Below, in pieces: positions 3,113-38,903 of a stretch of 39,882 nt of DNA. Origin of the DNA: Prevotellaceae bacterium (GTDB taxonomy: Bacteria > Bacteroidota > Bacteroidia > Bacteroidales > Paludibacteraceae); NCBI GenBank assembly GCA_031270065.1, contig JAISYF010000173.1, positions 1 through 39,882 of the forward strand, given 5' to 3'. Both the position numbers and the translations under genes were made by a program. Numbering within the stretch: position 1 is the first letter of the stretch; every line of letters starts with the position of its first letter. The notes below the pieces were generated by a model. It was not told where the DNA came from. It saw only the letters and a program-made list of their open reading frames with translations, and ran no database searches.

Positions 3113-3203
3113 CCAAATAAATCTATGCGACCGCAAAAACGGAGCCGCAATTTTAAGTGTGTATTTTTCACTTCTAATGCGGCAAAGCGTAGATTTTATT
3201 TGG
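3113..3203 (+). ncRNA. Candidate structured RNA/leader with three-way-junction architecture
   Basis: Outer stem CCAAATAAATCTATGC(3113-3128)/GCGTAGATTTTATTTGG(3187-3203) with one bulge; inner hairpin CCG/CGG (3131-3142); inner hairpin GCCGCA...AAGTG/CACTT...TGCGGC (3144-3183). Starts at the predicted TSS. Confidence 0.5.
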
Positions 3204-3235
3204 TTCGGAAAATATACACTTTTTTATTTTATTTT

Positions 3236-3828: not shown

Positions 3829-3832
3829 AATT

Positions 3833-5083: not shown

Positions 5084-5322
5084 TAATTAAAATTTTTTTT
5101 TTGCAAAAATAAAACAAAAAAAGTTTTTTGCAAATGACAAAATTATTTTCAAAAAAATTAAATGCCCCCATTTTATACAAGGAGACCGCTTTTTTAAACG
5201 CGACTTAAACCGAATTTAAACTAAACTTAAACTAAACTTAATGTTTTTCACTCAAAATTCACCAAAAACTTCACTCAAACTTAACGCAAATTAAACATTT
5301 CATTTTTGTGTCCGCAAAAGTA

Positions 5323-5733: not shown

Positions 5734-5767
5734 AATTTTTTCTTGATTTTTATAGAATTAGCAAAAA

Positions 5768-6313
5768 TTAGTCTGTAACGATTTCAAAATCAATATCTAA
5801 AAATGCAGTCCAACCGAGATTACCAAAAAAAGTTTTTGGCTCAACGGGCATCAAGCGGGCAGGGAATTTCACCGAAAGGCAATCATCACAGCCATCGTTG
5901 TAGTCCTTTTGAATTTTCTGAACAATCTGCATCAGAATATTTTTGCAAACATTCGAGCGCAGCAGTTCCGACAGATTATCGTTGTTGCGCATTGCGTACT
6001 CTTGCGCAATGGTAACGGCGATTTTTTGAGTAAGCATCGGCGTATTTTCGGGATTATATTCCGCTTCGCCAAATTCAACAAACAAAAATAGTTCATTCGA
6101 GTTGCGGATATTGTCGGACACAAATTCTGAATTTGCTGAAAAAACAAATTTTTTAATTTCTGAAATTTGCGTATCTGCCTGATTATTAATTATTTCTGTA
6201 AAAATTTCGTTGTATGCCTCACGCCCATCTGCAACGGCAACCGCCGACTGTTGCAGCACTTCGGCAGGCACAAATTTTGAAAAATATTTGTAAAGTTGAA
6301 GTAAATTATCCAT
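5768..6313 (-). CDS. Hypothetical phage protein
   Basis: 181 aa ORF, 6 bp from the next gene in series. Confidence 0.6.
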   Translation of the reverse strand: MDNLLQLYKYFSKFVPAEVLQQSAVAVADGREAYNEIFTEIINNQADTQISEIKKFVFSANSEFVSDNIRNSNELFLFVEFGEAEYNPENTPMLTQKIAVTIAQEYAMRNNDNLSELLRSNVCKNILMQIVQKIQKDYNDGCDDCLSVKFPARLMPVEPKTFFGNLGWTAFLDIDFEIVTD

Positions 6314-6319
6314 AATTTT

Positions 6320-7213
6320 TTAAATTAATTTTTCGATTGTTGCGTAATCAAGCCCTGTGTTTTTCACGATTTCGTCTTTTTTTGCGCCGCTTGCGATTGA
6401 TGCTGAAAGCGAGTCTTTTAACGATTTTATTTGTGCGTTAAAAAAATCAATCACGTTCATTTCGTCAATTTTTCCGTAGCCCTCTTTTTGTAAGTGCAAA
6501 ATGGTTTCGCTCATTCCGAGAGAAATTTTTGCAGTTTCGATTTCTCCCTCTTTTTTGCGAAATAAAATGCTGTAAATTGGGTGGTTTTTAAAAAAAAGCG
6601 AAATAGAACTAAACCACAGTGAAATTCCAAAAAGCACCTCTTCGGGCAATTTTTCCGCTGTTTTGTTTGGAATTTTATAAAGAATTTCCGCAATTTTTAT
6701 GAGCAAAAAACGGCGCATTTCGGCAGGAACATCATCGTTTATTGCTCTCAAAGTGTCAAGTGTGTCAGAAAATTGACGTGCCGTAATGTTTGTTTCAACA
6801 GTAATATTTCGCGAAAATGTCGGCGTGTGTGCGGCGATGTTCGGAAAAGGATTTTCGGCAAAATCGTAGTTGATATTTATTGTTTTGCCGTCAATTTTAA
6901 AAGCAAAATTAAGATTTTCGGCAATATTTATCATTAAAATTTTTGAAAATTCTAAATCGTATTTATATGCCGAAACAAGATTTTTGAATTTTGTTTTGTT
7001 TGTAAAAAAATACCATAATCGCCTTGAAATCTGTTTTTTAGGTTTAATAAAATTTGTATTACAAATTGCAAAAAACATTTTTTGTTGAAATTCAAACGGC
7101 GTGATAATATTCGCCATCAACAACATTAGCAAACGGAAAGCGTATCGGCGATTTTTCGGCGACAAACTTTCCCAAGTGGTCTGCAATATTATTTCAATCT
7201 TTTTCATTTTCAA
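6320..7213 (-). CDS. Hypothetical phage protein
   Basis: 297 aa; overlaps upstream gene stop by 4 bp. Confidence 0.6.
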   Translation of the reverse strand: MKMKKIEIILQTTWESLSPKNRRYAFRLLMLLMANIITPFEFQQKMFFAICNTNFIKPKKQISRRLWYFFTNKTKFKNLVSAYKYDLEFSKILMINIAENLNFAFKIDGKTININYDFAENPFPNIAAHTPTFSRNITVETNITARQFSDTLDTLRAINDDVPAEMRRFLLIKIAEILYKIPNKTAEKLPEEVLFGISLWFSSISLFFKNHPIYSILFRKKEGEIETAKISLGMSETILHLQKEGYGKIDEMNVIDFFNAQIKSLKDSLSASIASGAKKDEIVKNTGLDYATIEKLI

Positions 7214-8139
7214 AATGCAAATGAGTGATTTTCGGTAATTTTTGACGGTTTAAACTGCTGCTCTGAAATATTTTCCTTTGCGAGTTCATCTTTTTTTTGC
7301 TCAATTTTTGCGTCGAGCGCAATCCAATAACTTTGCGCCTTTTGTTCAAAAATTTCCGCAACTTTTTCGCGGATATATGTGTCTGCCTGTGCGTTGTGAT
7401 TTTTGCCCATTTCGTTATTAATGTCAAGGCGAATCGGTTCAGGCAGGCAATAGTAGGCAAGTCGTTTGCAAACACGAGCAACAACTTCGTAGCACAGTGG
7501 GCGCATCGCATTGTCTTTTATTTCCTCAATTTTGTCGGCAGAAATTCGCGACAAAACACACTCTTCCCACACTTCTCTGATAATCCAACGTGCAAAGAGC
7601 ATAAAAGCATCGTCAGAAATTCCTACCCATTTTTTGAAATCAGAAATTGCAACAGGCAATTCATCCGCCTGTTTTTTTTGTTCAGAATTTTGCCAATCAG
7701 GAAAATTTTCGGCATTTTCATTCAAAAAAGCGATTAGGCGGTTTAGCCAAAACCACGCATCAGAAATCAATTTATTTTCGAGTTGGTCTTGCTGATATTT
7801 GAATATTGTGGTTTTGTCGTCAGATTTTTTGACTGTTATTCCATCGTTGCCGATGTTGGCAATAAGATAGATAACGTGCTGATACAGAGCAAAATGCAAC
7901 ATTGAACGTTGCAAATAGTCGAGTGCATGAGCATTAAGTTCTGCGGAATGTTCGCCTTCTGCTGCTGTTTTTTCAACGATTTTTTCATAAAGATTTTTTG
8001 AAAAAAAATCGTAAAACTCAACAGCGATTTTTGCCAAAGTGCTTTGCAAATTGTCAAATTCGAGTGTGAGATTATTTCCTGAAATTTTCGGTTTCATTTC
8101 TCTGGCAAATGTACTTTTTTCAAACGGAATTTTTATCAT
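7210..8139 (-). CDS. Phage head-neck-like hypothetical protein
   Basis: 309 aa, directly downstream of the portal-like gene; helical composition; assignment by synteny. Confidence 0.5.
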   Translation of the reverse strand: MIKIPFEKSTFAREMKPKISGNNLTLEFDNLQSTLAKIAVEFYDFFSKNLYEKIVEKTAAEGEHSAELNAHALDYLQRSMLHFALYQHVIYLIANIGNDGITVKKSDDKTTIFKYQQDQLENKLISDAWFWLNRLIAFLNENAENFPDWQNSEQKKQADELPVAISDFKKWVGISDDAFMLFARWIIREVWEECVLSRISADKIEEIKDNAMRPLCYEVVARVCKRLAYYCLPEPIRLDINNEMGKNHNAQADTYIREKVAEIFEQKAQSYWIALDAKIEQKKDELAKENISEQQFKPSKITENHSFAF

Positions 8140-8150
8140 AATTTTAAAAT

Positions 8151-9638
8151 TTAAACAGGATTTTGCGCGGTTAATCTATCGTTTGGCGAAATTTCCGACT
8201 GTTTTGACGGAATTTCTATATTGAAACCGAGCCGTATTCCTTCGGTTTTTGCTCGCGGAAAATTCATTTGAATGGCGCGGTTGATTTCTTTGCAAATAAA
8301 ATATTCAGGAAAAGAGAGAGTATTCAGATACACAATATAATTATAATAGACCTCACTGCCCGACTTTGATATTACGCCGTCTTTTTCCACATTGGTAATC
8401 GAAGAGTTGATACCAATACCTGCCAAAACCACCTCATCGGCACGACGGTCATATTTGAGAACGCTCTCGAAGTAATCTTTGAATTTGCTCGGAAATTCCT
8501 CGAACTCCCAACCCTCTTGTCCAATTTTCAAAGTGGCGTAGAGTTTGCCCTGATTTTTTCCTTCTCCACTCATTAATGTCGTAATTTTTTCAAGTTCAAG
8601 TTTGATTAACTCCAATATCATATTTTCGTTAAATCGAAATGCTTTGCCTTGTTCGTCAAGCAATTTTATACCCATAAACTCCGAAATCAGTTTGTCATTT
8701 GGACCCGCAGCGCAATTTTCATTGCACATTCTTTCGAGAATAGTTTTATTTTGACCGTACCAAGCCGCAGGAATTTTGCAGTGAATATGTGCGTTGAGTG
8801 CGTTTTTGAGGTACGAATTAAGATAGCGCGGCGTAAGATTGCTCGCCTTAATCCATTCGTAAAGCCCTGCAAACCAATCATTATAGGCATAAACCCATTT
8901 TCCAAAAGTTTTTTCAGAATTAAAAGCGATTGCTTCGGCTTTGCGCAAAGGCTCTTTTGGGTTGAAACGCGGATAAACCTGCATTTCGCGACCATTAGCA
9001 ACAAACCAATCGCCGACAATAACGTGGTCGCAATCTTGCTGTTTTATTCTTTCAAGCAAAATTTCTTTTGTTGTAGCCAAACGCGCTTCATCTGCGCCGA
9101 TGTAGGAGAGTGCGATAATGCTGTTTTGCTCGCCAAGCCGCCGAGCGCGGCGAAAATGATATTGCGACACGCAGGTTTTGACGTGATAATAGTCAGTTAT
9201 CAAACTGCGCAGATAGTCGCGATAGTCCTCGTATCCGCTTGTTTCCCAACTTTCAAGCCAATCGGAAATTGCGGCATCTTGCACCTGTATTCGCTCTCCG
9301 TTTTCGTTGTTTTTGTATAAAATTGGACCCTTTCCAAAAAGAAAATCAATCCTTTTTTGAATTATTCCAGGCATCAATTTATTGTCGGAAATAAGCGCGT
9401 GGACTTCTTGCGGATAAAGATTGTGCCGATTGCCCCAAAGAGGCACGTTATACTCTCCGATGCGCATTGACATATTTTCCGATGCGTAACGTTGATAGAT
9501 CTGTTGAAATTGTGAAACGCGCTTGTCTTCGCGCTCAAAATCAGCGTTGCCATCAATTTCAAAAGTAACCACGCCTGTTTTTACCACTGCAAAACCGTGA
9601 TTGCCCGAAAATTCTATTTGAAGTTCCTCTTTGGTCAT
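8151..9638 (-). CDS. Phage portal-like protein
   Basis: 495 aa; IIQKRIDFLFGKGPILYKNN...YRDYLRSLITDYYHVKTCVSQYHF...EKITTLMSGEGKNQGKLYATL, portal-like layout. Confidence 0.6.
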   Translation of the reverse strand: MTKEELQIEFSGNHGFAVVKTGVVTFEIDGNADFEREDKRVSQFQQIYQRYASENMSMRIGEYNVPLWGNRHNLYPQEVHALISDNKLMPGIIQKRIDFLFGKGPILYKNNENGERIQVQDAAISDWLESWETSGYEDYRDYLRSLITDYYHVKTCVSQYHFRRARRLGEQNSIIALSYIGADEARLATTKEILLERIKQQDCDHVIVGDWFVANGREMQVYPRFNPKEPLRKAEAIAFNSEKTFGKWVYAYNDWFAGLYEWIKASNLTPRYLNSYLKNALNAHIHCKIPAAWYGQNKTILERMCNENCAAGPNDKLISEFMGIKLLDEQGKAFRFNENMILELIKLELEKITTLMSGEGKNQGKLYATLKIGQEGWEFEEFPSKFKDYFESVLKYDRRADEVVLAGIGINSSITNVEKDGVISKSGSEVYYNYIVYLNTLSFPEYFICKEINRAIQMNFPRAKTEGIRLGFNIEIPSKQSEISPNDRLTAQNPV

Positions 9639-9658
9639 TTTTTTTTATTAAATTAAAA

Positions 9659-9779
9659 AACCTTTCGCAAGATAGGAGATGGCTATTTTCTTCGCAAGGA
9701 TTAATCCGCAGACCTTCAATTTCTTTTTCAAAGAGAAAAAGATATTTATAAGACTTCTACTCATATTCTGCGAAAGGTT
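9659..9779. ncRNA. Candidate structured RNA in phage intergenic region
   Basis: Perfect 11-bp closing stem AACCTTTCGCA(9659-9669)/TGCGAAAGGTT(9769-9779), extended by GATA/TATT and GAG/CTC pairings with single mismatches; internal hairpin TCTTTTTC(9722-9729)/GAAAAAGA(9735-9742). Confidence 0.5.
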
Positions 9780-9785
9780 GTATTA

Positions 9786-10100
9786 CTATAATGTTGCCTC
9801 ATATTCCAGCACTGCGGCATTTTTGGTAAAAAATTCTTTTTCCGACTGCGACAGGCGATTGATTACGCCGTAAATTAGTGCAAATTCTTCGGCGGTAAAA
9901 TCCACTTCGCCGCCGTTTGCAACTTTGTTAGAGAGCGCGGTCAAAGTCTGCACCTCCGACAGATTGCGCGTGTGCTTGTTTGCAATTTCTTTTTCAACAA
10001 GCAATTTCAAAGGCACAATGCTGCCAACGGTTACAAGTTCGCCGTTTCTGATGTCGCGCCAGCCGTTGAGGACTTCTATATCTAAATTAATTTTATACAT
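9786..10100 (-). CDS. Hypothetical phage protein
   Basis: 104 aa ORF in series. Confidence 0.55.
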   Translation of the reverse strand: MYKINLDIEVLNGWRDIRNGELVTVGSIVPLKLLVEKEIANKHTRNLSEVQTLTALSNKVANGGEVDFTAEEFALIYGVINRLSQSEKEFFTKNAAVLEYEATL

Positions 10101-10121
10101 AATGATATTTTTTTAAAAGAT

Positions 10122-10727
10122 TTATAAAATAATTTTCGCAATATGTCCGCATTTTAATGACGGAATAACATATTTTTTAATTTCTTTGGCGTATTTTAAA
10201 AAGAAATAAATATCGCTTGAATTTCCGATTTGAGTTTGAAACGGCTCGGATTGCATATTAGTAAAAAAAACTTCGCTGTCGATTAAGCAACAGCCCATTG
10301 CTGCGGCTGCAACTTCCATCGGCGTTTCGTTTTGTACATCAAAAATTTTGATTTTATTTTCCTCTTTAAAATCCACATTTATCGGCAAACAGTGAGTCGT
10401 CAGATTTTTGATGTCTTTGCTAAAATACCACCCCGAAATAATTTTGATGTTTTTTGCTTCTGACTCAAAAATTACTTTTCGCAAAAAATTTGTCGGCAAA
10501 ATTGTATCGCTATCCACAAACAGCAACCAATCGTAATTTTCTTTTACGCATTTCTGCGCCGCGATGTTACGGCTGTGGTGGCACGAGTAATTACCAATCT
10601 TAAAGATGTCGCATTGGTACTTGTCTTTGTCCAAAGAATAGACGTTATCCTTAACAGCCTCGATTACGCGGGGGTCAATGTTATGGTCGTAATGCGGTAT
10701 ACAAATTAATATTTTTTTCATAGTCAT
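10122..10727 (-). CDS. Glycosyltransferase-like protein (family 2 type fold)
   Basis: 201 aa; ILICIPHYDHNIDPRV...NIAAQKCVKENYDWLLFVDSDTILP: GT-A DxD-type motif. Confidence 0.75.
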   Translation of the reverse strand: MTMKKILICIPHYDHNIDPRVIEAVKDNVYSLDKDKYQCDIFKIGNYSCHHSRNIAAQKCVKENYDWLLFVDSDTILPTNFLRKVIFESEAKNIKIISGWYFSKDIKNLTTHCLPINVDFKEENKIKIFDVQNETPMEVAAAAMGCCLIDSEVFFTNMQSEPFQTQIGNSSDIYFFLKYAKEIKKYVIPSLKCGHIAKIIL

Positions 10728-11542
10728 ATTACGTTAATATTTTTCAAAATGCCGCTGCCAGCACTATGGTTATCTATTATAACATCACGTATTGAAAGAG
10801 CAGTTATTTGGTTGAATATTCCTTGAATGTTGTCTATATTCGAGCCTGAAATAGTAGCGTTGTCTAAATTTCCCTCTATGAAACTTGCTCTGACACCGAA
10901 ATCAATTTTGCTGCCCGGAATATTGCCAGACAACCAACTTGCTTGAATGTAAGAAGATAGATATTGCGGGTTGGAAATATGATTATAAGGCACGTTGCCT
11001 ATCAATGAACCGAGAATGTCTAAGTCTGATAGTTTTGAGGCAGAAATCTTTGTATTTCCCTCGTTGATTGCATTGACTATATCTGCAACAGGAAGTTTGT
11101 CCACTGGAATTGTGCCGATGAGATTCCCCCAATTTAAAGTTAGTCCATTTGCATCAATTCCTAACATTTTCACACTATCGCTGCCGCGCAGCAGAGATAG
11201 GTCGCCGCTGGGATTAGAACGGATTATGGTCTTACCATCTCTGCGAATTTCCCAACCAGTTGCATCTGCCTCAATTCTATTCGCGCTTTTGTTGTAGTAT
11301 AAATAGGCACTCGAAGCATTCCAATTAAAACCAAGCGGCGAAGTGTTAGAATTAAATTCTATACTGCCTGTCATTGGCTCAGTAGTACCAGATAACGAAA
11401 GCATTAATGTTTGCAAAAGATTTTTAAGTTGCTCAATATCTGCATACATTGTTTTGCCGTCAAGATTTCTGCCGACAATAATTTTTTCATCAACAGAAAC
11501 ACTCTCGATTTTATTATAACTTTGCCAAAAAAGTTTTCCCAT
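10724..11542 (-). CDS. Tail fibre / tail-associated protein
   Basis: 272 aa; repetitive low-hydrophobicity sequence (SLSGTTEPMTGSIEFNSNTSPLGFNWNASSAYLYYN, SGSNIDNIQGIFNQI) typical of fibres; adjacent to tape measure. Confidence 0.65.
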   Translation of the reverse strand: MGKLFWQSYNKIESVSVDEKIIVGRNLDGKTMYADIEQLKNLLQTLMLSLSGTTEPMTGSIEFNSNTSPLGFNWNASSAYLYYNKSANRIEADATGWEIRRDGKTIIRSNPSGDLSLLRGSDSVKMLGIDANGLTLNWGNLIGTIPVDKLPVADIVNAINEGNTKISASKLSDLDILGSLIGNVPYNHISNPQYLSSYIQASWLSGNIPGSKIDFGVRASFIEGNLDNATISGSNIDNIQGIFNQITALSIRDVIIDNHSAGSGILKNINVI

Positions 11543-11561
11543 ATTTTTTATTTTTTATTTT

Positions 11562-11873
11562 TTATAAAAACCATTGTACTTTATTCCAAGTGTTGCCAAA
11601 ACGCGCTTGTCGTATAAGTTTTTTCCAACAAGTGCGCGGCTCGTTGGTGTCTAAATCTGTGAAAAAAAGGTAATGGTCGCTGTTTGTAGATGTGCCTTCG
11701 GCGCGTTTGGCAGCGCGAAGTCGGCAATTTTCATATTTGCGCAATTTGGCATTATTTGTGTATTCAGTTTTAAAATGCGTATGTGTAAAAAATATTATTC
11801 CAAAAGTTGCATTTTGCACTCCTTTTAGCAGCCGCATTTTTTCTATTGCCTGAGTTCCTGTGATAGTTTCCAT
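11562..11873 (-). CDS. Small phage protein
   Basis: 103 aa starting METITGTQAIEKMRLLKG; own promoter-like sequence upstream (11885-11935). Confidence 0.6.
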   Translation of the reverse strand: METITGTQAIEKMRLLKGVQNATFGIIFFTHTHFKTEYTNNAKLRKYENCRLRAAKRAEGTSTNSDHYLFFTDLDTNEPRTCWKKLIRQARFGNTWNKVQWFL

Positions 11874-11944
11874 TCTCTTTTTTTTTATTTTGCAAAAATA
11901 TAACAAAAAAATTTCTTTGCAAATGACAAAATAAATGAACACTA

Positions 11945-14900
11945 TTATTTTGAAGTAAAATTTTCTAACGTTTGAAAATCTCTATCAGCAGTTTTAAATT
12001 CATTCATATTGAAATCTAATTTCACTCCGTTCATTGCTTGCTGCATTGCTTTAATAAATTGCTCTTGCGACATTCCGCTTGCTTGCGGAGCGGCGTTTGG
12101 AGAACTGCCGACAAAACCGCCTGCCGCGTAACCTCCGCCGTAGTTGGATGGCAGAGAATTTCCGTGAGTGCGCTTGGTGCGCTCGGCATCAATGGCGCGT
12201 ATCATCGGCACGAGCGAAGGGTTGTGCATCTCTTCCTGTGCGATAACATACTCGCCTTTATGCACAGGTAAGCCGTCTGATGCTGTGCCTGCAACTTCGT
12301 ATTTTCCGCCGTTGCCTGTGTAGCCGCCGTCAGCGTAACCGCCGTTTTTAAATTCTTCTTTGAGTTGCACTGTGCCTGTTTTTGGCGGTGAAGTGTTGCC
12401 GCCTGTGCCGTCAAGCGTTTGGGCTTGAATTGCCTGATTTTGCTTTGACATTGTGGCAATTTGCAGTGCGGTAATTCCGCCGACAATTACAGCGGCAATT
12501 GCACCTGCAATGGGTCCAAGTTGGGCAAATGCAGTAATGATTGCCATTGCACCGCTGGCGATTGCCTGCATTATTTGAATTGCGAGGTTTGACTTTGCCT
12601 GTTTTTTCTTTAAATCAAGTTCCTTTTGCGCGTACTCTTTTTCTACGGCAGAGCGTTTGTCGGCATTGTCGCCCGCGAGCGCAAGTTGCTTGTTTTTTTC
12701 TACTTCCAGTGAGGCAGTTTCGAGTTCGTGCGCCTGCGTAACAGTTGCAGAGATTGCGCCAACCACTCCTTGCACAATGCTGCCAATGCCCATTGCCCAA
12801 TCTGTCCAAGATTTATTTTGATTGTTGCGCAATTGGTCGATAGCCGAAAAAGCAGTAGAAAAGGCATCGCGGAAAGAGTTTGCCAAGTCAGAGCCGAAGT
12901 CAATATCAGACAAGTATTCGGCAAGTTGACTGAGCGATTTTTTTGAGTTATCAATAAAATCAGTTGTGGCGCGTTCCGTTTTTTTGATAACTTCAACAAT
13001 TTTTGCGTGAATTTGTTCCAAAACAGCATCATCAATCGGTGCGCCGTTTTCAATCAATTTTTGAATTTCTGCGTACAAAAGTTGACGTGAGACAACAATC
13101 AATTCGTTGTAGCGTTTGTTGATTTCGTAACGCTGCTTTTCGTAATTTTTCTCGGTAATAATGCCTTGCTTTTTCTTTCTTTCGAGTTGATAGAGTTCTT
13201 CCTCGCGAGAGTTCTTAATAGTTTCTATTTGCGCATCGGTGCTTTTTTGCAGTTGTTTTACAGTTTCTTCGGCTGCTTTTTTTGTGGCATCAGATTTTTT
13301 CTTTGCCGAATCTGTGAGAAATTTGTTGAGTTCCTGTTCTTTGTCGATAATATTTTGCCGCGCAGTTTCGTACTCTTTTGATTCTTCGCCATGATATTTT
13401 TTTATAATTTGAAGTTGCGCATTAAACGATTCAATAGCAATTTTAAGCGATTCCTCTTTAATTTTTTCGTCATAATCTTTGCTGTTTTTCAACTCCTCTT
13501 TTTTATTGTTTAGTTTTTTGAGCGTAGCAGTTTTTTCGGCTTCGAGTTCGGCATTTTCCGCATCTTTGCGGGCTTTTTCTTTGGCTTTGATTTGTTTTTC
13601 TGTGAGTTCTTGGCGTTCTTTATTTTGTTTTTTCTGCTCTGCTACGACTACTGCTGTTTCTTCTTTTAAAGCATTTTCCTGAAATTTTTTGTAACCTTCA
13701 ATGTATTCCTTTTGTTCGTCAATATTTTTTTGCGCATCTGAAATAATAGTAGAATTAACATCTCTGTATTGCGATTTAGCCATATCTTTTTCATTATCAA
13801 TGATCCTTTGCTGCGTTTGAATGTATCCCTCTGCATTTTCAATCCGACTTGCATAATAATCAGAAGTGCCAAGTCTTTTAACTTGCGCCTCTTGTTTTTC
13901 AAGTTCTATAATAACTTCCTGCGATTTTTTTTCAAAAAATGAAATCGAATTTGTCAAAGATTTGTATTCAGAATTCAATTTTTCAATTTGTTTATTACTT
14001 AAACCACCTTTTGCAAGTTCGTTTTCAATTTCCAACTGTCTTTCAAGCGATTTTGTAATAGCATCTGAAATTGCCTGCTGTTTTGCGACATTCCGCATTT
14101 TCTCAATTTTAATCTGGTATTGATAATTCACATCTTCTAACGCCGTTTTCAAAAGTTCGTTTGAAATTTTTTCATCACCAATATTTTTTAAAAAATTGGG
14201 AAACTCTTCATTGAGCCGCTTTATCAAACTTTCACGCAATTTTTCATTGTCATTTGTTTCTATAATCGCTTTTACAAGTCCATTCAAACGGTTTTTTTCT
14301 TCCATAATGGATGCGGATTTCTCTTTTTCGAGTTCGACTGTGCGCTCCTGTACGCTGTTTCGGATTTTTTCGGCTTCGGTGGCTTCGTTTGCCGTTTTTA
14401 TATATTTTAACAATGCAGCAATAGCAGCAATAATGAGAGTGGCAATCAAAATGAAAATATTTTTTTTCATTGTTGCATTTAGTTTTGACTGTGCAACATC
14501 GGCGGCATCGGTAGCGACTTTTTGTGCAAAAAGCGATTTTATTGCAGCACCAATACTTTTTATGTAATTTCCGAGAAAAGTAATAAGTGATTTTAGCCCT
14601 GTAACGCCTTGCGCATTTGCGACATTTACTAATTTTCTAACGCCGAGATAAATGCCGAGAAGTTTTATCGCTGTTCCAATCAAAGCCAAATTTCGAGTAA
14701 TCCAACCAACCAATGAAGTCAGCATATCAACTGCGATTTTCATAAATCCTTTACTGTCGTAAAAACTCAACATCAAACCCTCCCACGCTGATGAAAGCAG
14801 TTGTACGCTGCCCTGCACAGTATTGAGTTTAGTTTTCTGCATATTTTCCATTTCCTCGCCTACATCTGTAATGCTGTCTTTTAATATTGTGATGCTTTCG

Positions 14901-16114
14901 GCATTTGTCAAAAAAGTATTGAAGGCAGCAACAGAGCGTTTGTCGGTAAGTTCGAGGGTTTCATTCAGCGAAATTCCTTTGTTTTCGAGTTCCTGCAACG
15001 CAGGCGCAAGTTCATCAAGCGAAGTAATCGGTTTGCCAAGCGCAACAGCAAGTTTGCCGTTGGAGTCGGCGAGATTTAACAAAATATTTCGCGTTGCCGT
15101 TGCCGCGCTGCTTGCATCAAAACCCGCATTTGCAAGCGTTCCGAGCAACGCCGTTGTTTCTTCTATCGAAAATCCGAATGCGTTGGCAACGGGTCCAACT
15201 GTACTCATTGCATTTTCCAAAAAACTGAAATTGAGAGCCGATTTTGTAGTTGCAACAGCCATTGCAGAAACGTATCTTTGTGTTTCTTCTGTATTTGCAC
15301 CAAACATTCGCAACGCCGCGCCTGCCAATGCCGCCGCTTGCGGTAAGTTCGCGCCTGTGGCTGTGGAAAATTGCAAAACATATTGTGTCATATTTTTTAT
15401 ATCCTCCTGTCCGTAGCCGAGTTTTGCGAGTTCGGTTTGCAGTTGCGTAACCTGAGAGGCGGTGTATTCTGTGCTTTCGCCAAGCCGTTTGGCATCGGCG
15501 GTAAGTTCTTTTACGCCGTCTTGTGTAGTGCCAAGAACGGCGGCGAGGTTGGCGTTGGCATATTCAAAATCGGTAATTTTAGAAATGGCGGATTTTATGG
15601 AAGAAATAAGAAAATCTAAACTTTTAGTATAAATATCGCCAAAAAAAGCTCCCCAAGCCATTTGCCACTTTTTTAATGCTTGCGTGTCTTGAAATACGCT
15701 ATTTAATTTTGAAATGCGTTGATGCGTTTGGGAAATTTGGTCGCTTAATTCTTTCCAACGTTTTGGTTCGAGGGTTTTATTTACATTATTCTGTTCTTGC
15801 CTTAATTCTTTTAACCTTTTTGATAATTGCCCCGTCGTCAAAAACTGTAATCCCATTGATTTTTCCAAATCATGAATTTTAGTGTTATAATTACTAACGG
15901 TTTGATTATTTACTTTTATTTGCGCGGAAAGATTTTTATACTCAGAGGTATTTCCTTTGCCTTGCTTTGCAAGTTCGGTAAGTTCTGTGCGCAATTTACG
16001 ATTTTCCAAAGTAATCGTATTGATTGATTTCTGATAGTCATTAATTGCTTTTTGACTTTCAGATGCCTGTTTAAAACCAAGTTCTAATAATATTTTGTCG
16101 TTTGAAACTGCCAT
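11945..16114 (-). CDS. Phage tail tape measure protein
   Basis: 1389 aa; coiled-coil N-terminus, phage-type TMP region (ADAKRLGESTEYTASQVTQLQTELAKLGYGQEDI), hydrophobic segments. Confidence 0.9.
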   Translation of the reverse strand: MAVSNDKILLELGFKQASESQKAINDYQKSINTITLENRKLRTELTELAKQGKGNTSEYKNLSAQIKVNNQTVSNYNTKIHDLEKSMGLQFLTTGQLSKRLKELRQEQNNVNKTLEPKRWKELSDQISQTHQRISKLNSVFQDTQALKKWQMAWGAFFGDIYTKSLDFLISSIKSAISKITDFEYANANLAAVLGTTQDGVKELTADAKRLGESTEYTASQVTQLQTELAKLGYGQEDIKNMTQYVLQFSTATGANLPQAAALAGAALRMFGANTEETQRYVSAMAVATTKSALNFSFLENAMSTVGPVANAFGFSIEETTALLGTLANAGFDASSAATATRNILLNLADSNGKLAVALGKPITSLDELAPALQELENKGISLNETLELTDKRSVAAFNTFLTNAESITILKDSITDVGEEMENMQKTKLNTVQGSVQLLSSAWEGLMLSFYDSKGFMKIAVDMLTSLVGWITRNLALIGTAIKLLGIYLGVRKLVNVANAQGVTGLKSLITFLGNYIKSIGAAIKSLFAQKVATDAADVAQSKLNATMKKNIFILIATLIIAAIAALLKYIKTANEATEAEKIRNSVQERTVELEKEKSASIMEEKNRLNGLVKAIIETNDNEKLRESLIKRLNEEFPNFLKNIGDEKISNELLKTALEDVNYQYQIKIEKMRNVAKQQAISDAITKSLERQLEIENELAKGGLSNKQIEKLNSEYKSLTNSISFFEKKSQEVIIELEKQEAQVKRLGTSDYYASRIENAEGYIQTQQRIIDNEKDMAKSQYRDVNSTIISDAQKNIDEQKEYIEGYKKFQENALKEETAVVVAEQKKQNKERQELTEKQIKAKEKARKDAENAELEAEKTATLKKLNNKKEELKNSKDYDEKIKEESLKIAIESFNAQLQIIKKYHGEESKEYETARQNIIDKEQELNKFLTDSAKKKSDATKKAAEETVKQLQKSTDAQIETIKNSREEELYQLERKKKQGIITEKNYEKQRYEINKRYNELIVVSRQLLYAEIQKLIENGAPIDDAVLEQIHAKIVEVIKKTERATTDFIDNSKKSLSQLAEYLSDIDFGSDLANSFRDAFSTAFSAIDQLRNNQNKSWTDWAMGIGSIVQGVVGAISATVTQAHELETASLEVEKNKQLALAGDNADKRSAVEKEYAQKELDLKKKQAKSNLAIQIMQAIASGAMAIITAFAQLGPIAGAIAAVIVGGITALQIATMSKQNQAIQAQTLDGTGGNTSPPKTGTVQLKEEFKNGGYADGGYTGNGGKYEVAGTASDGLPVHKGEYVIAQEEMHNPSLVPMIRAIDAERTKRTHGNSLPSNYGGGYAAGGFVGSSPNAAPQASGMSQEQFIKAMQQAMNGVKLDFNMNEFKTADRDFQTLENFTSK

Positions 16115-23384: not shown

Positions 23385-23507
23385 TTACTCTGCGATTCTT
23401 TTGTTTGATTCTTTATTATAAAAAATCACAAAGAAAATAATAAGCAAAAGCGCACTAACGGAAATACCGAGTACCGATGCAATATCTGTAAATAATTGTT
23501 CTATCAT
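23385..23507 (-). CDS. 40-aa single-TM protein coupled to repressor
   Basis: MIEQLFTDIASVLGISVSALLLIIFFVIFYNKESNKRIAE, not in ORF track; ATGA overlap with the repressor stop. Confidence 0.6.
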   Translation of the reverse strand: MIEQLFTDIASVLGISVSALLLIIFFVIFYNKESNKRIAE

Positions 23508-23800
23508 TTTTTTTCTAAAATTTTGATGTATTTGTTTAAAGTTATTATTATTTCTTCTTTGTCAGCACACGCTTTGCAAATTTCCGATTTTGGCACATAT
23601 CTTTCAGGGTAAGTAATAATATCAATCACAGACACACCTAATTTATCTGCAATTTGTGATAATCTTTTAAAGGGAATATCGTTTGAACGATTAATATATT
23701 GAGAATAAGTATTCTGTTTTACTCCCAATAATTCCGCTAAAACGTCTTGATTCATACGCTTTTCTTTGCGGATTGCCTCAATATTTGCTAATATATTCAT
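23504..23800 (-). CDS. XRE-family repressor-like protein
   Basis: 98 aa; IEAIRKEKRMNQDVLAELLGVKQNTYSQYINRSNDIPFKRLSQIADKLGVSVIDII. Confidence 0.85.
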   Translation of the reverse strand: MNILANIEAIRKEKRMNQDVLAELLGVKQNTYSQYINRSNDIPFKRLSQIADKLGVSVIDIITYPERYVPKSEICKACADKEEIIITLNKYIKILEKK

Positions 23801-27731: not shown

Positions 27732-28394
27732 ATGAAAGATAGTACTTTAATATTGGGCGGTTTAGGCTTGTTGTGGCTATTTAATAAAGGAAAGAAACTT
27801 TATAACAACCTCAATAATTTGCGTTTTGGTTTGGATGGTTTGCATATTGTAAATTTTGATAGCACCGCGCAAACAATCCTTTTAAACATTGATTTTAAGA
27901 TATTTAATCCGTACAATATTACATTGATGTTTTATGAGATAGACGCACAAATATTTTTCAATGATAAAGCAGTTGGGAATATTAAAAGCGCGGTCAATAG
28001 ATATATTTATGCCAATAGCACAAGTATCATTCCGATGTCTATAACTCTAAATTACAGCGATTTAGGAACGGAACTTTGGGAACATATTACAAGCGGAGGA
28101 CGAATTGACGATTGGCGAATTAATATAAAAGGGACTGTAAATGTACAAAATATAAACATACCTTTGGCACTGCAATTTATCTTCCAAGATTTTGTCAGCG
28201 GCACAGAACACGCTGTAAGAACTGTTGACAAAGCAGAAATTTTACATAAATTGATTGATTTAGGATTGACCGAGAAACAGGCAAAAAATGCGATGGAAGA
28301 AAACTATTTGCAGGTTTTGTCTGAGAAAAGGCAATCGGAAACGGACAAAATCGCAAAGGAAATTTTTACACGCTGGCAACTTATGATGTTTTAA
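27732..28394 (+). CDS. N-terminally membrane-anchored protein, LEA type 2-like
   Basis: 220 aa; MKDSTLILGGLGLLWLFNKGKK TM; FDSTAQTILLNIDFKIFNPYNITLMFYEIDAQIFFNDKAVG...PLALQF resembles LEA_2 domains. Confidence 0.6.
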   Translation: MKDSTLILGGLGLLWLFNKGKKLYNNLNNLRFGLDGLHIVNFDSTAQTILLNIDFKIFNPYNITLMFYEIDAQIFFNDKAVGNIKSAVNRYIYANSTSIIPMSITLNYSDLGTELWEHITSGGRIDDWRINIKGTVNVQNINIPLALQFIFQDFVSGTEHAVRTVDKAEILHKLIDLGLTEKQAKNAMEENYLQVLSEKRQSETDKIAKEIFTRWQLMMF

Positions 28395-28397: not shown

Positions 28398-29960
28398 ATG
28401 GCGCGTTTTATTGCAGAAAATAAAGACAATTTCAAAAAGAAAGGTATTACAAAAGATATTATCACGCAGGTAATTAATACCTTTAAAAAGGACTATTTGC
28501 AATGTGTAGACGTTGCAAAGGAACTGCAAGGCAAAAGTAATATTGAGACTTATGAAAATATATTTAATTACGTTCTTAAACATGTTGAATATGTAGCAGA
28601 CCCGCAAGGCGTGCAATGGATTAAAACCCCCGCGCGACTGATTACAGACGGCAAAGGCGATTGTAAAAGTATGGCAATTTTTATCGCAAGTTGTTTGCGC
28701 TGTCTGGGAATAGATGCTTATTTTCGGTTTGTGTCCTTTGGCAAAAGCAAAACGCCTACACACGTCTATATTGTAACTTACGACAATATAATAATAGACC
28801 CTGTGGAGCGCGTAAATGGACAACCAAAATTCAACTATGCACAAGAATATAATACTAAAATAGAGATAATGAATACTACAAATATATATGAATTAAGAGG
28901 GATTGGCAGTAATGAAACGACAACGATTGATTACACACCCTACACTGGCGCAAAGAGTTTTTTAGAGAATTCTATTGCCGAGAATTATTTGTGTAGCGAA
29001 ATTGATTATCTTACAACGCTTTTAACCATAGAGCCGACAGCCGAGAATTTTAATCAGTGCGATGCAATGGCACTTTCATTATATTTATTACAAAATGGTT
29101 ACGATAACGAGAAAGGCGGTTTGATTTTGCAAAAAATGAAAGACGAAGGACATTTTAATTATTTGAGTATCAACGAGAAAGAGCGCGTGGTACATTTAGA
29201 TAAATTGTTTGAAACAGCAAGAAATGTTGATATTTTAGATTTTAAAATTGGCGCAGATACAGAAGTTGCTATTTGGTATAATGATATTTTGAAACAAAAT
29301 GTAATTGAAGGGCGGAACCAAGAGGGAATTGAAGAATATGAAAAATTAGTTGGTGAAAATAAAATTGGAATTACAACAAAGCAAAAAAATGAATTAATCG
29401 CAAAAATGAAAGAGTCAGGTTGGGGCTTTTGTTACATTTTGGCTAATCCGATGTGGATTGTTAAGCAGTCGGAGAAATACCCGGAAATGCAACGTAAATT
29501 ACAAAATGAAAATGGATTGTTCATGCAATGGTACACGTCCTTAACAAAATATTTTACACAGCAAACAATATTGAATTATTTAAAGGATGGATTTATAAAG
29601 CAGACAAATCAGACGCCCGAGAATTACATTTTAGCGGGTATTAAAAAGGGAGAATTACCCTCTGCCCCAAATATTGGTATAGCAGCATCTGTTGTAGCCG
29701 CAATTATAGCAGCGGTAGCAGCGGTAGTAACAACTGTCTTAAATATGATTATTGCATTAATTCAAAAATCAATGCAAAGTCCGACCAACTACCCAAACGA
29801 TATTCCACCGAACAATGATGATTATTTAAGTGCCGAAGATTTAAAAGGTGATAGTGGTAGCGGAAGCGGAACAACAGACGAAAAGAAGAGCAGTTTATTA
29901 CCTATTTTATTAATTGGAGGTTTAATTTTTTTAACAAAAAATAATGAGTACGAAAGATAA
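28398..29960 (+). CDS. Transglutaminase-like cysteine protease/amidase domain protein with C-terminal TM segments
   Basis: 520 aa; ITDGKGDCKSMAIFIASCLR (Cys), THVYIVT (His), IIIDPV (Asp); hydrophobic SVVAAIIAAVAAVVTTVLNMIIAL and terminal SSLLPILLIGGLIFLTKNNEYER. Confidence 0.75.
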   Translation: MARFIAENKDNFKKKGITKDIITQVINTFKKDYLQCVDVAKELQGKSNIETYENIFNYVLKHVEYVADPQGVQWIKTPARLITDGKGDCKSMAIFIASCLRCLGIDAYFRFVSFGKSKTPTHVYIVTYDNIIIDPVERVNGQPKFNYAQEYNTKIEIMNTTNIYELRGIGSNETTTIDYTPYTGAKSFLENSIAENYLCSEIDYLTTLLTIEPTAENFNQCDAMALSLYLLQNGYDNEKGGLILQKMKDEGHFNYLSINEKERVVHLDKLFETARNVDILDFKIGADTEVAIWYNDILKQNVIEGRNQEGIEEYEKLVGENKIGITTKQKNELIAKMKESGWGFCYILANPMWIVKQSEKYPEMQRKLQNENGLFMQWYTSLTKYFTQQTILNYLKDGFIKQTNQTPENYILAGIKKGELPSAPNIGIAASVVAAIIAAVAAVVTTVLNMIIALIQKSMQSPTNYPNDIPPNNDDYLSAEDLKGDSGSGSGTTDEKKSSLLPILLIGGLIFLTKNNEYER

Positions 29961-30723
29961 AATTATAAAATATTTTAAGGACAATGCAGGCAGTTATGTA
30001 TATATTTTTATATTGGACGATGCCGCGCCACTATTTAATAAAGATATTCAACAAAAACGTTTGAATCAGATTGAGTATGTAATTCAATCCGCTCAATTAA
30101 GTTCTTTGAGTTACAATGATATTGCGACTGTTATTTCTGGAAAAATAAAATCGAAGTACGGCAAAACGCCGATGGAGTGTTTAAAATTATTGGCACAAGG
30201 AATTACCGTATATGCAACAGATGGCAGCAAAATAGGTAGCGTTGGCATTGGTGCAACGTCAATTAATGCACAGACAGGATTACCGAACAATTACAAAGGT
30301 ACATTTGACAACGACACCACCACAGATGGCAGATATAGCAGAATTATTGATTGTGAGAAAGATACTGTTTTAAATATTGTTGACAATAAAACCGGAAATA
30401 TTTTGTCTACGTATAATCAACAAACTAATACATATTCTGGTGGTGGTCAAAGTTCGGAATGGTGGACAATTCTACAATCTTGTTTGCCTGCAATTATGAG
30501 TTTATTAGAGTGGCTGGGCAATTTGCTTTTGGGTAAAAATGCAACAGGAATGAACACAGGCGCAAGACAAGGAGACGGATGGGGAAGTAAAGACGGACAG
30601 TCTGACAAGTGGAATAACGGCAATAAATCAACAATGGATTTGACTACAATATTACTTGTTGGTGGTATTGCTTATTTAGCACTCAAAGATAACGGAAAGA
30701 AAAATATTATCCTTGAGTACTAA
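29944..30723 (+). CDS. Putative virion membrane protein with C-terminal anchor
   Basis: 259 aa; ends STMDLTTILLVGGIAYLALKDNGKKNIILEY; overlaps preceding gene. Confidence 0.6.
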   Translation: MSTKDKIIKYFKDNAGSYVYIFILDDAAPLFNKDIQQKRLNQIEYVIQSAQLSSLSYNDIATVISGKIKSKYGKTPMECLKLLAQGITVYATDGSKIGSVGIGATSINAQTGLPNNYKGTFDNDTTTDGRYSRIIDCEKDTVLNIVDNKTGNILSTYNQQTNTYSGGGQSSEWWTILQSCLPAIMSLLEWLGNLLLGKNATGMNTGARQGDGWGSKDGQSDKWNNGNKSTMDLTTILLVGGIAYLALKDNGKKNIILEY

Positions 30724-31464: not shown

Positions 31465-32214
31465 ATGAATGTAATTAATAATTCACCCTCGTATGAGGTA
31501 AGAAAGAAAATATTCAGCGTATTGTCTGAATGGGGCAAGCAGAACGATTGTGTGCCACAAGAAAGTTATTTGCGTCTATCTAAACCGTTGCAAAATGGAG
31601 TTGGACACTACACTTTTGACCCGTCTGTAAAGGCGATTGTACAGGGCGATAAATCGTTGTCCGAAGGCGATGTATTTTTCGGGTTAGGAAATATTGTTGG
31701 TTTGATGCTCGACACAGACCCTGTTCGCACAGGTGCAGCACCAATTCTCACATACCCATTGCTTGTAAGTGCAGCAAGTCGTGGTTTTATTGCCGAAGAT
31801 ATTTTCCGTTTGTATTATGGTATTCTCACGAGGAGAACTGTACAAACACAACTTAATGAAGGTTTTCCAGTTGCAAAATTCCGCGTTACGCCGGAAACAC
31901 AACCAACCTTTATTATAGATGCAGATGGAGTTTCTCACTCTTTGGGATTGCAGCCTGAGTACGATTACGAACGTGCTATTAATTGGTTTGCTATCAATTT
32001 CGTAATGAACGGAAAAGACAGCAATATGATTGAACTTGACTTTAACGGCACCGATGCAAACTTTGCCGTTGCCGAAGCAGACCAAACAACTGTAAGTACC
32101 ACACACAAACCTTATCTTGTGTATGAAGAGTTTGGCTTCCTGATGAAAGGAGCAGCAAATGCAGATGTGAAGAATTCTCTTGAATCATTTATTGCTGCAC
32201 GTCTTAAATGGTAG
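31465..32214 (+). CDS. Candidate major capsid protein of tailless phage
   Basis: 249 aa, no TM, central in structural operon; followed by a strong hairpin (32244-32269). No fold evidence available. Confidence 0.45.
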   Translation: MNVINNSPSYEVRKKIFSVLSEWGKQNDCVPQESYLRLSKPLQNGVGHYTFDPSVKAIVQGDKSLSEGDVFFGLGNIVGLMLDTDPVRTGAAPILTYPLLVSAASRGFIAEDIFRLYYGILTRRTVQTQLNEGFPVAKFRVTPETQPTFIIDADGVSHSLGLQPEYDYERAINWFAINFVMNGKDSNMIELDFNGTDANFAVAEADQTTVSTTHKPYLVYEEFGFLMKGAANADVKNSLESFIAARLKW

Positions 32215-34599: not shown

Positions 34600-35484
34600 A
34601 TGTTTGAATCTTCAATATATAATATTAATTCCAATAGAATTTTAGTAGAAAATTCTTTGAAGTCAAAGGCTGTTAAAGTTGTTAATGCAGGTGCAATTAT
34701 CTATGTGCAGTATAATGACAATAATTACATTGACAAAGAATTAGGAAGTAGTGAAATTGGCACAATCGTAAATTGCACAGGTGCATATATTCCACTTAAT
34801 GACGGCAGCACAATTTACCAGACAGAAGGCGGCTTTTGGGCAAATATTAGACAAAATAATAATGATTGGAAGTTTGTCAGCAGAACAGTCAGCGCGATTA
34901 GTATCACAACCGCACAAGATTATATAAATGCGACACTTGCGAATAATGCTTCTATTTTTGAGAATAATTTGTTTTGCGCGCGTTTTGCAAGCAAATTAAA
35001 TAACAGCGAAAAACAAGTGCTTTTTGGGCTGCAAACAAGATTAATGCAGCGCAATGAAATGATTAAAAATTCTGCCGAAATTGAAAGCAAAGTTGAATCA
35101 TACCCGAACGGTTATATTAAATGGGAAAGTCAGTTAAATGCCTTTATGCAAGATCCCTATATTAATTCTGTAACTACTTTGATTATTATTTCGTGCGTAA
35201 TTCTATTTGTTACAATAACAAGTATTGTTCTTTACAAGAAGATTTATTCTGAAAGCAAGAATGATGTAAAATTTTCAAAAAATTTAACGCGCACTTTGGA
35301 ATCAAGACTTACCAAAGAGGAGCGCGAACAATTATATAACGAAACGGCAGGACTTATAACCGCAGCAAGGATTAAAGAAAAAACAAAATCCATTGCCGGA
35401 GGTTTATCTTTTGGATTGATTGCAATTGCAGCAGGTTTATTTTTTCTACCCTCAATTTTAAATGAAAAAAACAATGGAAATTAA
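34600..35484 (+). CDS. Membrane protein with two TM segments
   Basis: 294 aa; VTTLIIISCVILFVTITSIVLY and GGLSFGLIAIAAGLFFLPSIL. Confidence 0.6.
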   Translation: MFESSIYNINSNRILVENSLKSKAVKVVNAGAIIYVQYNDNNYIDKELGSSEIGTIVNCTGAYIPLNDGSTIYQTEGGFWANIRQNNNDWKFVSRTVSAISITTAQDYINATLANNASIFENNLFCARFASKLNNSEKQVLFGLQTRLMQRNEMIKNSAEIESKVESYPNGYIKWESQLNAFMQDPYINSVTTLIIISCVILFVTITSIVLYKKIYSESKNDVKFSKNLTRTLESRLTKEEREQLYNETAGLITAARIKEKTKSIAGGLSFGLIAIAAGLFFLPSILNEKNNGN

Positions 35485-36461: not shown

Positions 36462-37874
36462 ATGAATATCATACAAAGTAATATAGCGGGTGCGAATCAA
36501 AGGTATTTGACTATTTATGATGCAAACAAAGATTTTGCGCTAAAAACAGATATTCCGATAATACCGGAGTCAATAGTTATTGATGCGTACAATATGTTTG
36601 ATTGGGAAAGTACAACTGAAAATTTTGTTTCGGCACTATTTTACAACACTAAGGACCCGATTATAAAATTATGCGTAAATAATGAAAGTGAGGATTCACT
36701 TGTAATTACAGCGGAATTAGGTTTTGGGGCTAAAGTAGGCAGCGTAAATAACGTTGTTTTCGATGCCGATGGAGTAGCACAGATTGTAGAAATTACACCC
36801 GAAATAGGGCAGACGCAAACAACTATCACTATACCTGCTGCCTGCAAAGGCGAAATATTTTATGGTTGCGATGTAACTGAAAATAACTTTGGCAAGTCAT
36901 ACATCATTGCCAATCAGGGGGAAGGCGGGACTATAATAGTGAAATTAGTTGCTTCTGACTTTGCGAAGTTCTTTAACTTTGGCGACGAAAGTACTGTTAT
37001 CGTTTTTGAGAATATTTCTGTTGCCAAGTCCGCAGTAACAAGTATTGTAATTAACGATGATATTATACCCGCAGCATTGGCGGATGGCGTAAACACGACG
37101 ATTAGCGAACGTTTTATAACAAATTTTATAAATTGTACTTTTGTAGATTTTTACGGATTGCGAAATGTTACTTATTTTGGCAACGGATCTTTTGCAAGCA
37201 TTGCAGCAAATAATCCCGCAACTTATTTTACGAATGTTATAAAAGTCGGATTTAGTTTCTTCTCAGAATTTAGAGGAACTCAATTTGATTTGACGCCATT
37301 TTCTAACTTGCAAGAAGCAGATTTATATTTCATTTCAAATTGGAATAATGTTTTAGAATTAGATTTGAGTAAGTTAGTAAAGTTAGGAGGAAGCTTTCAA
37401 ATGTTTCTTGAAAACCTTCCGCAATTACAATCGAATGTTTCTTTAGATTTTCTTGATAACGAAATGACTACTGGATTTAATCTGGTTTCTTGTCTATCGC
37501 GTCTCTATTCTGTCAAACGTATTGACGTATCTAAATTGGCAACTATTGATTTGGATAAATTTATACATGGATATTATTGGAACGATAGAATTGCCTTTGC
37601 TGCAAATTCGTTAGAAGAATTTGTAATTGGCGATTACATAATTCCGCAGAGTCAGCCTGTATCGACAGGAACTTTGCAGCGTACATTAGCTGTGCAAGAA
37701 TATTCACCCGCAGCAATTAACGGCATAACCATCACAGGAACGAGGGCTGCCGTAGGTAGACTGATAGAAGTAATTGGAGACCAAACTCCCTACCATTACA
37801 ACGGTTATCCTTCTTTTGAATATAATTTTGTTTGGAATTTAATCTCAAATTATACAGACGTGAATAATGACTAA
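36462..37874 (+). CDS. Putative spike/receptor-binding protein, leucine-rich-repeat-like C-terminal half
   Basis: 470 aa; DFYGLRNVTYFGNGSF...PFSNLQEADLYFI...LDLSKLVKLGGSFQMFLENLPQL...VKRIDVSKLATIDL. Confidence 0.5.
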   Translation: MNIIQSNIAGANQRYLTIYDANKDFALKTDIPIIPESIVIDAYNMFDWESTTENFVSALFYNTKDPIIKLCVNNESEDSLVITAELGFGAKVGSVNNVVFDADGVAQIVEITPEIGQTQTTITIPAACKGEIFYGCDVTENNFGKSYIIANQGEGGTIIVKLVASDFAKFFNFGDESTVIVFENISVAKSAVTSIVINDDIIPAALADGVNTTISERFITNFINCTFVDFYGLRNVTYFGNGSFASIAANNPATYFTNVIKVGFSFFSEFRGTQFDLTPFSNLQEADLYFISNWNNVLELDLSKLVKLGGSFQMFLENLPQLQSNVSLDFLDNEMTTGFNLVSCLSRLYSVKRIDVSKLATIDLDKFIHGYYWNDRIAFAANSLEEFVIGDYIIPQSQPVSTGTLQRTLAVQEYSPAAINGITITGTRAAVGRLIEVIGDQTPYHYNGYPSFEYNFVWNLISNYTDVNND

Positions 37875-38442
37875 ACAGCAATTCATATCTACCTATTGGC
37901 AACACGCTGTTGCTTGTCAGACTGCATACGGGTTGCCGTTAGCGGTTATTTTGGCACAGGCGGGGCTTGAGAGTGGTTGGGGTGCTTCTGTTTATCAAAA
38001 TAATTTTTTTGGCATAAAGGCAAATAGTGCGTGGAAAGGCAAGAAGCAACTTTTGCGAACACACGAAATGTTGCCAAAGAGTAGCGGGTATTCGTTCCCG
38101 GAAGTGATTAGCATAACACCCACAAGCACAGGTAAGTATGATTGGTATGTACGTGATTATTTTCGGGCTTACGACACAGCGGAAGAGGGTTTTATGGATT
38201 ATGGAGCATTTATAACGGGTAACTCAAGATATAACAATGCGGTTATAAATTACAAAAACACAGGCAACTGGCAGGCGTATTGCAGAGATATTGCGGCAGC
38301 GGGGTACGCAACGGCTACAAACTATGCGAACAGTTTAATTAGCACAACCGAACAGGTAATAAATTATCTGCCTCTTGATTGGCAACAAGTAAAGGCAAAT
38401 TCGGCAAAAAAAAAAACTTCGCTGGTGGTTCAGAATTTTTAA
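37867..38442 (+). CDS. Glucosaminidase / FlgJ-like lytic enzyme
   Basis: 191 aa; GLPLAVILAQAGLESGWGAS...NNFFGIKANSAWKGK...FRAYDTAEEGFMDYGAFITGNSRYNNA...YATATNYANSLI. Confidence 0.85.
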   Translation: MTKQQFISTYWQHAVACQTAYGLPLAVILAQAGLESGWGASVYQNNFFGIKANSAWKGKKQLLRTHEMLPKSSGYSFPEVISITPTSTGKYDWYVRDYFRAYDTAEEGFMDYGAFITGNSRYNNAVINYKNTGNWQAYCRDIAAAGYATATNYANSLISTTEQVINYLPLDWQQVKANSAKKKTSLVVQNF

Positions 38443-38531
38443 TAATTGGAATTTTAGCAGGATTATATTTTTTAAATAATAAAAACAAAAACAATTTTGA
38501 TTGTATGATAAAAAATTATATTAAAAATTAA
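38406..38531 (+). other. A11 slippery tract plus -1-frame extension encoding a C-terminal TM anchor
   Basis: A11 at 38406-38416; -1 frame from 38415 reads NFAGGSEFLIIGILAGLYFLNNKNKNNFDCMIKNYIKN then TAA (38529-38531). Confidence 0.6.
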
Positions 38532-38549: not shown

Positions 38550-38903
38550 ATGGAAATTCAAACAATTATTTCAGCAATCATAGGGCTGTTAGCCTTAATT
38601 GCAACAGGTGGATGGTTTATTAATTATCGTCAAAAAAAAACTATCGAAAGCGCAAGTGCCGACAATGCTACTTTATCGGCTTCAAAAAATGCCGTTGATT
38701 TAGCCAATGAGATAGCACAGAAATACAACACTATTATTTTATCTTCAATGGGGGAGCACGAGAAACGCCACGATGATGTGGAAAGTAAACTTGATGTATT
38801 ATTGTATGAGGTTACAATTATTGGTAAATATCTAAATGGCGGGTTGGCAAAGTTCAAAAAACAGCAGCGTGATGAACGTGGGCGTTTCATTAAAAAAAAA
38901 TGA
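38550..38903 (+). CDS. Single-TM holin/lysis-like protein
   Basis: 117 aa; IISAIIGLLALIATGGWFINY N-terminal TM, coiled middle, basic C-terminus FKKQQRDERGRFIKKK; downstream of lytic enzyme. Confidence 0.55.
   Translation: MEIQTIISAIIGLLALIATGGWFINYRQKKTIESASADNATLSASKNAVDLANEIAQKYNTIILSSMGEHEKRHDDVESKLDVLLYEVTIIGKYLNGGLAKFKKQQRDERGRFIKKK

Follow-up and report, generated by a model that had tools for sequence, protein, structure and literature searches.

A conserved A10–A11 run as a putative slip site for soluble and membrane-anchored lysins in SSIP-1-like proviruses of Bacteroidota

We analysed a stretch of 39,882 nucleotides from a Prevotellaceae bacterium (the window) together with related elements, and observed that a run of 10 or 11 As, conserved among these elements and specific to the lysin gene, lies where two reading frames part. 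The hosts are Bacteroidota, and the elements are integrated, SSIP-1-like viruses that lack a tail and probably contain a membrane. In their lysin gene, we infer, the run has been conserved as a programmed slip site, on which RNA polymerase slips and thereby provides both a soluble and a membrane-anchored form of the enzyme. No RNA, protein or read data bear on this proposal; that slippage occurs, what brings it about and what each form does are all inferred, and we give the reading as a whole a probability of about 0.65. Transcription would stutter on the run and leave a share of the mRNAs with one extra A, so that slipped and unslipped transcripts would encode different C-termini. The window gene would by default yield a soluble glucosaminidase and, after one added A, this enzyme plus a membrane anchor at its C-terminus; certain relatives would have the opposite default, a lysin that is anchored unless slippage shortens it.

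The lysin gene and the element that carries it

The window lysin gene (37867–38442, plus strand) encodes an endolysin-like GH73 glucosaminidase, whose zero-frame product of 191 aa is the putative soluble form. It matches PF01832 (E = 2.6e-25, 89.9 bits against the curated Pfam cut-off of 30.2) and the PHROG 3513 endolysin family (E = 4.5e-40), FlgJ structures are among its matches by sequence, and the Glu35 column is invariant in the GH73 alignment (nine rows). The A11 tract, read directly, occupies 38406–38416 of the same strand, with its first A at codon position 3 and an A_AAA_AAA heptamer inside it. The zero frame ends in NSAKKKTSLVVQNF, the stop lying eight residues past KKK. The −1 frame, reached by one extra A, reads NFAGGSEFLIIGILAGLYFLNNKNKNNFDCMIKNYIKN from 38415, GG linker included, to the stop at 38529–38531; this extension of 38 aa (38415–38531, plus strand) contains a predicted membrane anchor with the hydrophobic core FLIIGILAGLYFL (38436–38474, plus strand, from translation of the −1 frame). 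Translation of the +1 frame at the A11 gave no such hydrophobic segment. The initial annotation had placed an A11 run with a hydrophobic −1 tail near the end of the glucosaminidase ORF, and had likened the layout of this tail to that of neighbouring anchors. Coordinates and peptide proved correct on direct reading, and the likeness was borne out by the proteins starting at 28398, 29944 and 34600, in which a C-terminal hydrophobic segment is followed by charged residues.

The gene belongs to an integrated element of the SSIP-1-like tailless-virus kind, some 15 kb long (some 24 kb when counted up to the contig end). The element includes an HTH repressor (23504–23800) and, on the plus strand, a transglutaminase-like, C-tail-anchored protein (28398–29960), two proteins with in-frame C-tail anchors (29944–30723, longest A-run 3; 34600–35484, longest A-run 6) and a capsid-protein-like jelly-roll protein (31465–32214), which served as the marker for finding relatives. 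Proteins with C-terminal membrane anchors are thus many in the element, as expected of a virus with an internal membrane, and from them we infer that the virion probably contains one. The small protein encoded after the lysin (38550–38903, plus strand) has an N-terminal hydrophobic segment and is lysis-cassette-like; its match to the PHROG 739 Rz-like spanin is weak (E = 0.0058), and by sequence it resembles a lysis protein only weakly. A C-terminal fragment of a tyrosine integrase near the contig end (39393–39704, minus strand; PF00589, E = 5e-05, under Pfam's own cut-off) is a mark of an integrated element. The structural operon opens with an LEA_2-domain protein (27732–28391) whose N-terminal part has a hydrophobic segment and which, as judged by eye, recurs in relatives. 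A second, tailed-type prophage region, likewise noted by eye, lies on the minus strand (1763–16114) and has a tape-measure-like ORF of 1389 aa (11945–16114).

The nearest isolate found was Salisaeta icosahedral phage 1 (SSIP-1), whose genome is 43.8 kb. The transglutaminase-like protein has a homologue there in gp34, a structural protein (hhalign 97.1%, E = 6e-11), which the HMM of alignment A4 also retrieved (E = 1.8e-12). The link through the capsid is less firm. When its profile was compared with SSIP-1, the capsid-like protein gave 5.3% probability for gp46 and 0.1% for gp47, and the resemblance is one of fold: the predicted model (mean pLDDT 75.6) had a 211-residue viral model as its best match (probability 1.00), while the match to SPV1 (6oj0_A) had a probability of 0.99 but an E-value of 8.4e-3. 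SSIP-1 gp46 is also 211 residues long, and from this length we infer that it is the viral model in question. The isolate differs in that its annotated endolysin, gp31, has neither the tract nor a hydrophobic tail. An internal membrane and capsid proteins of two types are described for SSIP-1 in the accessible portion of a review (PMC6356626).

The tract across related elements

A search of 200 family genomes with the capsid-like protein as query found it in 11. An alignment of its relatives found 13 of 358 in the family, 5 of 393 in the order (including the window's own genome and G050), 3 of 395 in the class (the window's own included) and, in the phylum, only the window's own among 395. Family searches around three outliers gave 2 of 9, 1 of 2 and 2 of 4 genomes. 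Scanning genome contigs for the transglutaminase yielded 15 loci, mostly from Bacteroidales MAGs and many of them, to judge by length, identical contigs. IMG/VR contributed one locus of the element group; IMG/VR scans with single window proteins, a scan with the capsid alignment and a phage tblastn search with the capsid query returned no matches. The SSIP-1-like integrated elements of Bacteroidota MAGs are diverse and nearly absent from IMG/VR (L043–L053, L144–L146, L155, L158, L163, L170, L171, L174 and L175), and in two of them the transglutaminase-like gene is present as two ORFs (G118, L046 3282–4920; G025, L051 4729–6392). We found no description of this provirus group in literature titles and abstracts, most subscription journals being outside the search.

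The lysin was examined in related elements whose contig extends to it, and those with a hydrophobic C-tail lysin form a set of 17. Left outside were elements whose contig stops before the lysin or whose lysin could not be identified (G050, G217, G1138, L154, L160, L161, L163), and G025 (PHROG 873 lysin) and G1251 (M23 peptidase), where the hydrophobic segment is N-terminal, not C-terminal. The C-tail of G013 is under the hydrophobicity cut-off, yet this element was counted among the 17 as a miss. A pure A10 (11 elements) or A11 (two elements) stands at the junction of enzyme and anchor in 13 of the 17. In ten elements the anchor is reachable only via a −1 shift (the window with A11; G086, G024, G165, G118, G175, G173, G551, G564 and G1139, all with A10), and the zero frame stops 0–8 residues past KKK. 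The other three have the anchor in the zero frame after the tract (G029 and L158 with A10, G600 with A11), and both alternative frames stop within 3–6 codons. The anchor was in the +1 frame in none of the 13 tract-bearing elements. All 13 combine an anchor with an early stop in the alternative frame, which leaves each gene with two possible C-termini. The tract was absent from four C-tail lysins of the set (G099, G013 with its weak tail, L155 and G1270).

The initial annotation had suggested that the A11 could switch the glucosaminidase between soluble and membrane-anchored forms. Neither of the outcomes that the initial annotation had named as refuting this was encountered. Homologues do have the anchor, by a −1 shift in the ten elements above and in frame in the three with the tract and in a few without it. 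The switch is therefore supported, but by comparison across relatives only; there is no experimental demonstration, and whether RNA polymerase or the ribosome would slip is unresolved. Homopolymers were also seen at other places. The SLT lysin of G013 (L053 3833–4447, minus strand) has a T9 inside its short hydrophobic tail, which a −1 shift would extend, and in G024 (L044 5312) and G118 (L046 6220) an A10 lies at the C-terminal end of the gene preceding the capsid-like gene, where the shifted frames have no hydrophobic tail.

How readily could such a tail arise by chance? Among 247 ORFs of at least 100 aa from 15 related elements, 15 had a hydrophobic −1 extension of 20–60 aa; eight of these were tract-bearing lysins (the filter of this survey missed those of G175 and G1139), and the background in the other ORFs was about 3%. 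A single case would be only moderately improbable, but ten conserved cases are not chance. The low background per ORF plus the recurrence across elements effectively excludes chance.

In 15 elements there are 67 in-frame C-terminal hydrophobic tails in ORFs of at least 100 aa; at least nine As lie just upstream in three, all lysins, and in none of the 63 non-lysin C-tails. Of 74 SLT-lysin homologues in IMG/VR, none has a run of at least nine As near its end, and two have a C-terminal hydrophobic tail. Sense-strand runs of at least ten As number 23 in about 229 kb of elements; 13 of them are the lysin tracts, which in eight elements are the only such run. The host genome has 435 overlapping A10 matches in 2.77 Mb (both strands). 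Long A-runs as a general trait of AT-rich elements are ruled out by the run counts, the non-lysin tails and the IMG/VR homologues. An A10 is not rare in any one gene (synonymous P of 0.04–0.70 per gene), because the ends are Lys-rich. Resampling of synonymous codons with the proteins held fixed predicted it in 4.4 genes against the 13 observed, so that Lys-rich ends contribute but are insufficient alone.

The tract is found with different enzymes, the 13 tract-bearing lysins being of the GH73 (four), SLT transglycosylase (eight) and PHROG 873 (one) types; G173 was typed by alignment A3 and the window by Pfam. Six of the ten out-of-frame anchors share a GIS motif, from GH73 (G024, G165), SLT (G118, G175, G173) and PHROG 873 (G551) lysins alike, and the anchors of G165 and G173 share 15 of 30 aligned residues, although the enzymes are of different families. 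The window anchor has no close similarity to the GIS anchors. On the capsid tree, G024, G165, G118, G175 and G173 form one group (92/88) in which the enzyme type is mixed, and the fewest changes required are five for enzyme type, five for anchor frame and three for tract presence. Anchor differences fall on position 3 of −1-frame codons in 182 cases, versus 128 and 124 for the other positions (ten dependent pairs); the excess is modest and the pairs are not independent, and it is in keeping with translation of the −1 frame. It is possible, although we rate this slightly below an even chance, that the A10 and the tail anchor form a portable 'slip-anchor' cassette, kept in a membrane-containing provirus lineage while the catalytic domain is swapped between GH73, SLT and the third type, so that stuttering of the host RNA polymerase would set how much of the one gene's lysin is virion-bound and how much is free. 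An EF-hand-like stretch, DLNKDGxITVxEF, lies just 5′ of the slip site in most SLT lysins (L046, L047, L052, L145, L171, L158).

Polymerase slippage and its alternatives

In bacteria, slippage takes place on nine consecutive As or Ts, and there is strong avoidance of AAA_AAA_AAA in the genes of E. coli, according to those parts of a review that were available (PMC5009743); here a pure A/T run of at least nine, in the form of A10 or A11, stands at the branch point of the two frames in 13 elements. Insertions dominate homopolymer slippage, as stated in the available portion of another paper (PMC5574713), which predicts an anchor in the −1 frame and not in the +1 frame. The same direction, seen in 10 of 10 out-of-frame cases, would also be expected of programmed −1 ribosomal frameshifting on the A_AAA_AAA inside the tract, by which the anchored form would be made from unslipped mRNA, and the heptamer is available in every phase observed. 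A heptamer, however, takes up only 7 nt, and the runs are longer, being pure A10 or A11 in 13 of 13. Moreover, the downstream RNA fold was unremarkable (z above −2) at 11 of the 12 sites folded (G600 was not in the set), giving no sign of the usual ribosomal stimulator, which is common at −1 frameshift sites though not universal; the exception, G024, has an unusually stable fold (z = −2.64), as would suit a ribosomal mechanism. We consider ribosomal frameshifting unlikely, though still possible, and favour slippage by the polymerase because of the pure length of 10–11, which exceeds the seven that a ribosome needs, the scarcity of folds and the −1 direction. The two acting together are not excluded.

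Other explanations do without recoding. Replication slippage might change the tract length, so that the anchor would be switched on in some virus generations and off in others, and both states do occur in one genus (G1139, A10 with the anchor in −1; G600, A11 with the anchor in frame), so that, judging from this pair, a change of one A could flip the default product. Free switching should scatter the lengths and frames, however, and among these deeply diverged elements only two lengths were seen, 10 (11 of 13) and 11 (2 of 13), with frames of 10/3/0 (P = 0.002 versus uniform, kinship not corrected) and none in +1; such phase variation appears improbable. Still harder to sustain is the view that the anchor is a separate holin-like mini-protein with its own start after the lysin stop. 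A TAATG overlap in G086 and, in G564 and G1139, a start (ATG or GTG) among the first three codons of the −1 frame would allow it, but by their listed codons 7 of the 10, the window included, have no ATG, GTG or TTG between the tract and the hydrophobic segment, the first ATG of G551 falls within that segment, and the anchor is fused in frame in three relatives; a separate mini-ORF is thus ruled out at most sites by missing start codons. Finally, the window is one draft assembly, and its true sequence could be A12 with a permanent anchor, or the gene a decayed pseudogene. We give this hardly any credence, since the −1 arrangement is found in ten elements from separate assemblies, G024 in a single-contig genome, and ordinary sequencing copes with a run as short as A10 or A11. 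Given the recurrence in nine other elements, a simple A12 error fails to account for the group.

Roles of the two forms and known systems

If polymerase slippage does occur, the anchored form may ride in the virion membrane and open peptidoglycan at entry, or may be kept at low copy number, while the soluble form would serve lysis. At least four elements (G024, G165, G118, G175) have a second GH73 lysin without an anchor, so the tract is not simply the route of a one-lysin virus to a soluble enzyme. This weakens a simple account of one lysin with two jobs, and in these four elements the slip may serve, rather, to hold down the number of copies of the anchored enzyme.

Slippage on the tract, if true, would explain how a small membrane-containing virus obtains membrane-bound and free lysin from one gene, and viral lysins would be added to the few bacterial-type genes in which polymerase slippage is believed to be put to use. 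In ten elements the anchor escapes simple ORF calling, and a single reporter plus a single RT-PCR would test the slip-site claim directly. Literature searches by title and abstract returned nothing relevant on slippage or frameshifting with endolysins, transmembrane forms or soluble and anchored phage forms. The recoding principle is known and its use here is new, slippage and the two proteins not having been seen directly.

In tailed phages, gpG and gpGT, the tail-assembly chaperones, are made at a set ratio by a ribosomal −1 frameshift. There, too, one phage gene has two C-termini, but the mechanism is ribosomal and no membrane anchor is involved. PRD1, whose P7 is a transglycosylase, contains a membrane and has a lytic enzyme in its virion, as we infer for the viruses of our elements. 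It uses separate genes for its lytic functions, in contrast to the single lysin gene that we propose gives both forms by a frame slip. The lytic enzyme P15 and the holin P35 are named for PRD1 in the accessible portion of the review (PMC6356626).

As far as the available part of its description goes (PMC4256274), tssM1 of Citrobacter rodentium, a close parallel studied by experiment, has an A11, mRNAs with 10–15 As and a shift of about 20%, both forms being needed, and in tssM3 of Yersinia pseudotuberculosis the default is reversed, the shift yielding the shorter form. Within the same limits, the likeness extends to the A11 of tssM1 lying shortly 5′ of the stop of the shorter ORF, to two C-terminal variants, to the lack of a nearby ribosomal stimulator among the features found and to a default that differs between homologues; by analogy, the 10/3 split of the anchor frame looks like the same reversal. 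Slippage was measured for tssM1, whereas for the lysins it is only inferred. The products also differ, tssM1 and tssM3, as described in that part, encoding a secretion-system protein with a large C-terminal domain, and the window gene a viral peptidoglycan hydrolase with a putative membrane anchor that is kept across enzyme folds.
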